This document shows, piece after piece, positions 13,958 through 30,304 of a stretch of 34,295 bases of DNA. The notes beneath the pieces are model-generated. The model ran no database searches. It was not told the DNA's origin and worked only from the letters and a program-made list of their open reading frames with translations. How positions within the stretch are numbered: the stretch's first letter is position 1; the number at the start of each line of letters is the position of its first letter. Origin of the DNA: a virus. Both the position numbers and the translations under genes were made by a program. The stretch spans positions 1-34,295 of the IMG/VR virus record IMGVR_UViG_3300023096_000014; one strand, 5' to 3'.

Positions 13958-13962
13958 AAAAT

Positions 13963-14076
13963 ATGAAAGAAATTATTACATTAAGACAAATTTTAAATAC
14001 TAGATTTCCTAAGGGATCTAGATTATTTAGTAAAAAGAATTCTAACTCAGTAAAAAGTGAACGAAATAATAAATAA
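13963..14076 (+). CDS. hypothetical basic protein, 37 aa
   Basis: Tiny basic ORF (Lys/Arg/Ser/Asn-rich) placed five bases after the previous stop and overlapping the next gene by 20 bases. Function unknown. Translation is supported only by position. Confidence 0.4.
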   Translation: MKEIITLRQILNTRFPKGSRLFSKKNSNSVKSERNNK

Positions 14077-14791
14077 GTATAGATGGCCAGCATTAGGTAT
14101 AGTGCTGGTTCTGATTTTTTTCGGCGTAAAAAGTTGTGTAAATAATCAACAGAAGTTCCAGGCGGGCAAAAATGACGCTTTGAAAGATCAAGTAGAGAAA
14201 TTAAAAGATGGTGTAAAAACTATTGATAAGACTCTGCAAATTTTAAGAGATTCTATTAAGGCCGAAGACATAAGAAAACAAAAACAAATTAATGAGTTTC
14301 AGCAAAAAGCTAAAGACAGTGAGAAAAAAGTTATAGCTTTACAGGAATCAAATAAAAAAAAGAAAGAATTAATTAGAAATAAAAATTTAGTTGAAGTGGC
14401 CGAAACACTAAATGAAAATTATAGTTCTAAAGACGCTACAGCCACAAATAATTCTGTTGATGTTAAACCTCCAATGACTTATCAAATTCTTGAAACTATT
14501 GCTGACGCTAATACGGCGCAAGACATCATAAAAGAAAAAGATGTACAGCTTTCTTCTAAAGACAGTGTTGTAAACTTAAAAGACGAGCAACTAAGAGATA
14601 AAGATATTAGTTTAAAAGCTACGGAGAAAAGTTTAGATTCATACAAAGAATTGAATGTTCTGCAAACAAATTTAAATAACGGGTTAGAAAAAGAAAACAG
14701 TAAATTAAAAACTAAAAGTTGGCTAGAAAAAGCTTTAATTCCTGTTAGTGTTGGAGTTGGGTTTTGGCTAGGAACAAAAATAGGTAATTAA
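14057..14791 (+). CDS. coiled-coil membrane protein, 244 aa
   Basis: It starts at GTG (14057). An N-terminal membrane segment (WPALGIVLVLIFFGVKSCV, about 10-28) is followed by about 180 residues of highly charged helix with Lys/Glu/Gln heptads. It ends in a Gly-rich hydrophobic stretch (IPVSVGVGFWLG, about 228-239). The layout could suit an inner-membrane spanin or a scaffold linking membrane and cytosol. It directly abuts the AAA ATPase gene, suggesting partner function. No family recognised. Confidence 0.6.
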   Translation: MNEIINKYRWPALGIVLVLIFFGVKSCVNNQQKFQAGKNDALKDQVEKLKDGVKTIDKTLQILRDSIKAEDIRKQKQINEFQQKAKDSEKKVIALQESNKKKKELIRNKNLVEVAETLNENYSSKDATATNNSVDVKPPMTYQILETIADANTAQDIIKEKDVQLSSKDSVVNLKDEQLRDKDISLKATEKSLDSYKELNVLQTNLNNGLEKENSKLKTKSWLEKALIPVSVGVGFWLGTKIGN

Positions 14792-15703
14792 ATGATAGAA
14801 CAAGTAAAACAGTTTGTAGTAGAACAATTGCATAATAATGAATTTTTCAAAGGTGGCGCTGCTATAGCTGTTTTATCAGCATTAGGTTTTTGGCTTAAAT
14901 CTTTTTTTCCGTGGATTTGGGGGAGAATAAAAAGACAGTTTTCTTATACAATGAGAATTGAGTCTAAGACAGATATTTATTTTATATTCAATTGGTGGCT
15001 ACAGAAAAACCATTCTGATAAATATAAAAAAGTTTTAATAACTGTTGAGTGCGAAAATAAGTATAAAGAAGATGAAGTCAAAGAATACAAACTAAAAGAA
15101 AATAATTTTGAATCCGCTTTTTATTTTTGGCAAAGTAGAACTCCAGTGTTTCTAGAATCAACCAGAGAAAAATTAGACGGAGCCCATTATGTGGACGGAG
15201 CGCATATTGATAGTTATACTTTAACAACTTATTTTAACAGGCAAACTTTAAAAAATCTTATAAGTGAAGTAGTTGCTGAGTATAATTCAACTTTAAAAGA
15301 AAAAACTACAAGTCATTTAATGCAATATCATAACTTTGACTCATGGAGAAAAGTTAATAATCTGGGCGGAAAAACATTTGAAAAAATATTTAATTCTGAG
15401 AAGAATGAGCTACTAGAAGACCTCCAACAGTTCTTTTCTTCAAAAGCTTTATATGCGCACAGAGGTACTACTTTTAAAAGAGGTTATTTATGTGAAGGGT
15501 CACCAGGAAATGGTAAGACAAGTACAATAATTGCTTTAGCTCAATACCTAAAAAAGGATGTATATTCTTTAAATTTAACTTCTCTTACTGATGGAACCCA
15601 ATTAAGACTAGCGTTTCAAGGAGTAAAAGAAAACAGTTTTATTCTTGTTGAAGATGCTGATTGTATGGTGAATGGGCGAGAAAAAAGAATTAGAAAATTA
15701 TAA
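14792..15703 (+). CDS. BCS1-like AAA ATPase, truncated after Walker B
   Basis: A membrane segment lies near residues 18-38 (GGAAIAVLSALGFWLKSFFP). Next is a BCS1-specific-type middle domain, then the AAA core: RGYLCEGSPGNGKTS (Walker A) and FILVEDADCM (Walker B). The frame then runs only nine more residues before a stop at 15701-15703. BCS1-type proteins normally continue about 100 residues through sensor 1, the Arg finger and the lid. A tail typical of that lid exists in another frame at 15672-15785. So the ATPase core is incomplete: an internal deletion of about 85-90 codons with a frame change is the best reading. It may be inactive. Confidence 0.72.
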   Translation: MIEQVKQFVVEQLHNNEFFKGGAAIAVLSALGFWLKSFFPWIWGRIKRQFSYTMRIESKTDIYFIFNWWLQKNHSDKYKKVLITVECENKYKEDEVKEYKLKENNFESAFYFWQSRTPVFLESTREKLDGAHYVDGAHIDSYTLTTYFNRQTLKNLISEVVAEYNSTLKEKTTSHLMQYHNFDSWRKVNNLGGKTFEKIFNSEKNELLEDLQQFFSSKALYAHRGTTFKRGYLCEGSPGNGKTSTIIALAQYLKKDVYSLNLTSLTDGTQLRLAFQGVKENSFILVEDADCMVNGREKRIRKL

Positions 15704-15785
15704 TGAAACTAACTCTGCTGCACAACTACAAGAGTTTTTTATAAAATCAAATACAATAGAGGAAGCAATCAATAAACTTATATAA
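15672..15785 (+). pseudogene. out-of-frame C-terminal remnant of the BCS1-like AAA gene
   Basis: Read in the +1 frame relative to the gene at 14792, these bases encode NSAAQLQEFFIKSNTIEEAI. This resembles the SxAQLQ...EEAI end of BCS1-family AAA proteins. It overlaps the truncated frame and ends exactly before the start of the next gene at 15786. That is where the intact AAA gene would have ended. Confidence 0.6.
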
Positions 15786-16253
15786 ATGCATTATTTTTTC
15801 AACGAAGGTATAAACGCAGAAACAGTTAATAATTTAATTGACAAGTTAGAAGGAAAAGAAGATATCACTCTTTATTTTAGTACAGAAGGAGGAAGTATAG
15901 ATCCCATGAGGTGTCTAATAAGTTTTTTTAATTCTCTTGGAGATAATATTAAAATTGTTTTAACTGACGAACTTATGTCTGCGGGAACAATGTTACTCAC
16001 AGACTATAAAGGACGACTGACACACGAGGGACTCGATTTCATTTTATTTCACAAATGGGATAGACTTGTGCATAATTTAAGAAAGTCTTCAATAGTAAGC
16101 GAAGAGATTTTAAATCAGCAAGATGAAGAAAACAATAAAAAATTCGCAAAAAAGCTTAGAAAGTTAGGATTAACAAAGAAGCAAGTTAAAAAATATAAAA
16201 AGGGGAAAGATGTTGTATTATTTAAAAAAGACTTACATTTAATAAATCTTTGA
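15786..16253 (+). CDS. ClpP-like serine protease
   Basis: This 155-aa protein shows the ClpP/SppA fold blocks in order: LYFSTEGGSIDPM (29-41, the oxyanion-side GG), DELMSAGTMLL (61-71, nucleophile Ser65 as in ClpP xxASMGxxLL) and FILFHKWD (85-92, catalytic His89). A Lys-rich tail follows in place of the ClpP handle helix, and the protein is shorter than ClpP (about 195). The expected Asp of the triad cannot be located with certainty. It follows the AAA gene, so an ATPase/protease pair is plausible. Confidence 0.75.
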   Translation: MHYFFNEGINAETVNNLIDKLEGKEDITLYFSTEGGSIDPMRCLISFFNSLGDNIKIVLTDELMSAGTMLLTDYKGRLTHEGLDFILFHKWDRLVHNLRKSSIVSEEILNQQDEENNKKFAKKLRKLGLTKKQVKKYKKGKDVVLFKKDLHLINL

Positions 16254-16714: not shown

Positions 16715-17155
16715 ATGATAGAAGGCATTGACGGAGAAACACATATAAATATCTACTCCAAAGGCAAAACAGAAATAGGGAGATGGCTTAGTAATTTTAG
16801 TTATTAGCCAATACAAACTGAGCATGGATGGTTTAATTCTATTGAAGGTTATTGGTATTGGCAGACAACTTTAAATGATCATCTAAGAGAGTGTCATGGA
16901 TTCGCCGCTAAAAAACTTGGAAAAGAAAGTGAAAAATTGTTAGAGATCTCTCCAGAAGTATTCCAAGACAAAATTAAAAAAGCAATTGATTTAAAATTAA
17001 AGTTAAGACCTAAAGATATTGCTAATATTAATTTGCCGTTAGCTCATTACTATGATTACGGCGGCAAAAAAGTTGAAAAGCCAGAGTATAATTGGATCAC
17101 AGAACATATAGAAACAAGAATTAAACAGTTAAAAGAATATTATGCAGGAAAATAA
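16715..17155 (+). pseudogene. NADAR (YbiA/DUF1768-like) gene with an in-frame TAG
   Basis: From the ATG at 16715 the frame gives GRWLSNFSY, a TAG at 16805-16807, then PIQTEHGWFNSIEGYWYWQ and FAAKKLGKE. These are the ordered blocks of the NADAR fold (LSNF...P......F.S.E..Y...AkklG). NADAR proteins remove ADP-ribose from modified substrates and can act as antidotes to DarT-like toxins. The TAG lies in a non-catalytic position, and the rest of the frame (146 residues) is intact. TAG is used as a normal stop elsewhere in the window. It could be a nonsense mutation, an error or suppressed; a downstream ATG at 16937 would give a fragment without the active region. Confidence 0.7.
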
Positions 17156-30052: not shown

Positions 30053-30304
30053 ATGAAAACATTCAATCTTACACCCGTAAACAACCGTAAATCATTCTAC
30101 GGTAAATGTCAAGTAATAGAAGAGAACGGAATCGCGCAATTAAAAAGTTATGAAACAATTGTAGCCAAGTACGACACAACAAATAATAAAATGACTGTTT
30201 TTGGTTATTACAGTCCAACTACAGCGACACATATAAACGCATTCTTAGATTATTACGGTTTTAAAACCTGCACGAAAAAGGAATTAGAAAATTACAATAG
30301 TTAG
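30053..30304 (+). CDS. conserved phage/plasmid hypothetical protein, 83 aa
   Basis: The line LKSYETIVAKYD...MTVFGYYSPTTATHINAFLDYYGF is a recurrent small-protein signature (SY.TiVa.y......GyYS.TT..HIn.FL...G) in phage and conjugative elements. I recall no proven function. Ends with TAG five bases before the next ATG. Confidence 0.75.
   Translation: MKTFNLTPVNNRKSFYGKCQVIEENGIAQLKSYETIVAKYDTTNNKMTVFGYYSPTTATHINAFLDYYGFKTCTKKELENYNS

Follow-up and report, generated by a model that had tools for sequence, protein, structure and literature searches.

A known phage chaperone/translocase gene, coding for a BCS1-like AAA protein, has most likely lost its function in this window, a 34,295-base virus record; we read it as a pseudogene allele and not as a new compact protein. 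Its truncated ORF lies at 14792..15703 on the plus strand and encodes 303 aa, as defined by ORF translation, Pfam and alignment to relatives. The product opens with an N-terminal hydrophobic segment (residues ~20-40, from the sequence), followed by BCS1_N (PF08740; residues 30-188, E=4e-7, above the Pfam gathering score), Walker A (GSPGNGKT) and Walker B (ILVEDAD), and then stops. BCS1_N behind a membrane segment and both Walker motifs are features of BCS1-like AAA proteins. The AAA core is incomplete, with neither sensor 1 nor an Arg finger: only profile positions 3-73 of 131 of the AAA domain (PF00004) are matched, and in intact relatives the match extends up to 130/131. This confirms an earlier note, made from the letters alone, that the core breaks off shortly after Walker B. 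The final residue common to the ORF and its relatives is K298 (of GREK), after which five out-of-frame residues, RIRKL, lead to the stop.

The C-terminal BCS1 lid is likewise absent from the frame of the ORF, but a remnant of it persists in the +1 frame ((15672-14792) mod 3 = 1). Using the ORF list, Pfam and alignment, we located this detached remnant at 15672..15785 on the plus strand, where 37 codons hold the second part of the lid and the C-terminus and encode MGEKKELENYNETNSAAQLQEFFIKSNTIEEAINKLI. The segment is 89% identical at the amino-acid level to residues 365-401 of the nearest intact relative, L003, and it matches AAA_lid_BCS1 (PF25426) weakly, at profile positions 29-56 of 60 with E=0.003, which is under the Pfam gathering score. 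The next gene begins at 15786 with an ATG directly behind the TAA of this segment, so that the lid-like tail described in the earlier note does end where that note had placed it.

Protein searches of IMG/VR recovered five contigs in which the gene is intact: L003 (143 kb), L004 (12.7 kb), L005 (141 kb), L006 (143 kb) and L022 (27 kb). Each carries one uninterrupted ORF of 401-407 aa, with the same start and the same lid end as the window. A whole-record search detected the gene once each in L003-L006, with internal stops absent, and in the window as two pieces covering profile positions 1-310 and 364-404. Because the five intact relatives hold both halves as one gene, their occurrence together in the window is not due to chance. 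The earlier note had proposed alignment to full-length homologues as a check, and the missing part, which was to be sought in strain variants, is present in all five relatives. In the annotated phage collection the full-length query reaches a coverage of at least 80% in 32 records. We also looked in IMG/VR and the annotated phages for a short form that stops at the same point; none of the five relatives has it, nor does any phage homologue for which we checked the alignment or the annotated length. The homologue in the phiKZ-group phage fnug, whose tblastn match ends early, is yet 508 aa long by its annotated coordinates. Among cellular relatives there was one distant AAA match, in a Treponema MAG.

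Comparison with L003 (IMGVR_UViG_3300022932_000014) defined the lesion. This contig shares the upstream gene with the window and is 98% identical to it in amino acids over residues 1-298; it differs in having 212 bp that the window lacks and in its downstream gene. At the DNA level, window positions 13959 to 15686 are 95.9% identical to L003, and the match resumes at L003 position 6096, 212 bp on. The stretch absent from the window is thus L003 5884-6095, about 71 codons, and since 212 is not divisible by 3 the frame changes. The earlier proposal of an internal deletion with a frame change is therefore borne out by the intact relatives, but its size, put at 85-90 codons, was too large. Alignment to L003 places the junction at 15673..15687 on the plus strand, with an uncertainty of about 12 bp in the crossover position. 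No copy of the missing piece turned up in the rest of the window. In an exact scan, the junction was absent from other IMG/VR viral contigs (records very near the window's own were left out, so that sister contigs sharing it may have been hidden); a scan of viral contigs with the upstream flank matched only the intact L003 contig, and one with the tail matched only two intact contigs. The two break ends in L003 agree at 9/13 bases, a level that about 3% of random position pairs also reach. The repeat identity being this weak, we do not claim a clean microhomology-mediated deletion. A 25-bp stretch at the junction (15680-15704) recurs with 92% identity at 30274-30298, close to where an unrelated ORF ends; it is AT-rich and the recurrence is possibly due to chance.

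The lost stretch corresponds to residues ~298-367 of a protein of ~401 aa, from the linker after Walker B through the first lid helix, and the deletion leaves the last ~36 codons out of frame. We mapped it on an AlphaFold prediction for the intact protein of L003, which is usable over the AAA and lid regions only (mean pLDDT about 50-84 per block) and unreliable over residues 1-200 (pLDDT <50). The lost elements are a helix (305-317), strand 4 (321-327) with sensor 1 (FFTTNH, Asn), a helix (330-339) that contains the RCGR Arg-finger region, strand 5 (345-348) and the lid helix (354-365). Having lost two of its five core strands along with sensor 1 and the Arg fingers, the remnant would probably neither hydrolyse ATP in a ring nor adopt a stable AAA fold. 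The 303-aa product could probably form no working ATPase ring, and would be degraded or inert.

The pattern of substitutions speaks to the age of the lesion. Between the window and L003, dN/dS is 0.064 in the retained part of the gene (30 synonymous and 8 nonsynonymous changes) and 0.081 in the upstream gene. Between the detached tail and L003 there are 8 synonymous and 2 nonsynonymous changes; although these numbers are small, they suggest that most of the divergence predates the lesion. As both the retained part and the tail bear the mark of purifying selection, the lesion appears recent. The sequences indicate that selection lasted until recently, with no sign of neo-functional rewriting.

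The relatives also point to a mosaic population. In L003-L006 the first ~60 and last ~45 codons of the BCS1 gene are nearly identical. The two types of core are only about 68-73% identical in amino acids, as if the core had been swapped as a cassette. Upstream, the closest relative of the window is L003-like and downstream it is L004-like, the change occurring within ~110 bp of the junction. It is a reasonable inference that unequal crossover during core exchange produced the deletion. A recent illegitimate or unequal recombination event in such a population, where the core is swapped between near-identical ends, may have removed the ~212 bp out of frame, which would have broken the core after Walker B and detached the lid tail; the phage would tolerate the loss, the gene being accessory.

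The main competitor of the pseudogene reading, which we consider unlikely, is that the deletion arose during assembly or library preparation, for example as a chimeric join of co-occurring strains, or is a minority form, and that the actual phage has an intact gene. The lesion is known from a single contig, the relatives form a mosaic of closely similar strains with the nearest relative changing near the junction, and a second gene nearby also has a nonsense codon, all of which would fit an artefact. However, the two sides of the break share identity over about 12 bp at most, and there is no other homology to guide a false join. A length of about 12 bp is below normal assembler k-mers, and a false join is therefore unlikely for ordinary assemblers. 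Furthermore, 78 query ORFs of relatives (the relatives overlap, so this does not count distinct genes) align collinearly with the window at >85% coverage and without stops, indicating that the contig is not generally error-ridden.

The neighbouring genes bear on whether the phage could do without BCS1. Upstream, at 14057..14791 on the plus strand, is a membrane/coiled-coil gene that is weakly similar to Rz-like spanins (phrog_214, E=1e-4). This spanin-like gene adjoins the AAA gene in syntenic relatives and is present upstream in L007-L010, L012 and L022. Downstream, at 15786..16253 on the plus strand, is a 155-aa gene whose ATG abuts the old BCS1 stop and which was assigned a ClpP fold by AlphaFold and Foldseek. 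In a syntenic contig, L012/G005, the flanking spanin-like and ClpP-like genes are both kept, and BCS1 has no match in its 138.6 kb, though G005 may be incomplete. Because this syntenic contig is without BCS1, the gene looks accessory or dispensable and its loss plausible. At L012:5680-6000 the BCS1 site is occupied by a YunG-like phage protein (PF24591, E=5e-15).

Two further observations were made downstream. The ClpP-fold protein has conserved T-x-GG, SAG and H..DR motifs, an AlphaFold pLDDT of 81 and a Foldseek match to ClpP at E~1e-6; its gene lies directly 3' of BCS1 in L004, L006 and L022, and occurs without BCS1 in L012. The adjacency of a membrane AAA gene and a ClpP-like gene may merit a look. 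A second broken gene, YbiA/NADAR-like (phrog_652), lies 1 kb downstream at 16715-17155 and has an in-frame TAG at 16805-16807. Its best annotated phage match is named YbiA, and intact copies of 155 aa and 153 aa are present in L010 and L022. We rejected an alternative code in which TAG is read through, as TAG ends 6/53 plus-strand ORFs of at least 80 aa and no tRNA was found.

A very improbable reading is that the ORF encodes a functional short, membrane-anchored, hydrolysis-dead AAA protein that has been selected as such, for example as a dominant-negative poisoner of the BCS1 rings of a co-infecting phage. Its anchor and BCS1_N are intact, as are both Walker motifs, with low dN/dS, and co-infecting sister phages would have near-identical intact N-terminal parts; that the truncated protein is expressed and poisons their rings is equally hard to credit. 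The low dN/dS extends into the out-of-frame tail, however, which argues for past selection, and the novel C-terminus amounts to the five out-of-frame residues. The AAA sheet, judged from the intact model, would be without two of its five strands, and we found no second example among the five intact relatives or the checked phage homologues. The earlier note had suggested that the phage carries such a protein if the allele is genuine; that the protein matters to the phage gained no positive evidence: the gene is frame-shifted, occurs in a single contig and retains half of the AAA core sheet. The least probable explanation of all is that frameshifting or slippage fuses both parts into one shortened protein, for although there is an A6 run at the junction, the tail occupies the +1 frame, slipping by -1 on the A-run leads to a stop within a few codons, and the fused product would still be without sensor 1 and Arg fingers.

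A pseudogene allele would represent a natural loss of phage BCS1, while other members of the population keep the gene intact under strong purifying selection. Phage BCS1 orthologues in jumbo phages have been proposed to act in membrane-proximal virion assembly via folded-protein translocation (PMC7824862); the loss suggests that this proposed role is conditional and not essential. In annotation, the ORF of 303 aa is best labelled a frameshifted fragment rather than a compact AAA protein.

The intact BCS1-like family is already described in phages, where orthologues (PHROG 7485; Tenacibaculum phages pT24, PTm1 and PTm5; Caulobacter phage CcrColossus) are annotated as BCS1 or AAA ATPase. The window copy shares with them the N-terminal segment, BCS1_N and the AAA core, at 27-31% amino-acid identity; unlike it, they are full length (pT24 494 aa and PTm1 450 aa by annotated coordinates), whereas the window copy ends past Walker B. 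Compared with mitochondrial Bcs1 (yeast 6sh3, mouse 6uko), the window copy is without sensor 1, Arg fingers, strand 5 and half of the lid. The intact form is close to the mitochondrial protein: the profile of the intact relatives aligns with yeast Bcs1 over positions 3-394 (E=2.7e-44), and Bcs1 chains ranked first in Foldseek with the intact L003 model. Our working role for the intact phage protein is the proposed translocation in membrane-proximal assembly: it would work like BCS1, as a heptameric AAA ring, anchored in the membrane at the N-terminus, through which a folded protein is moved.
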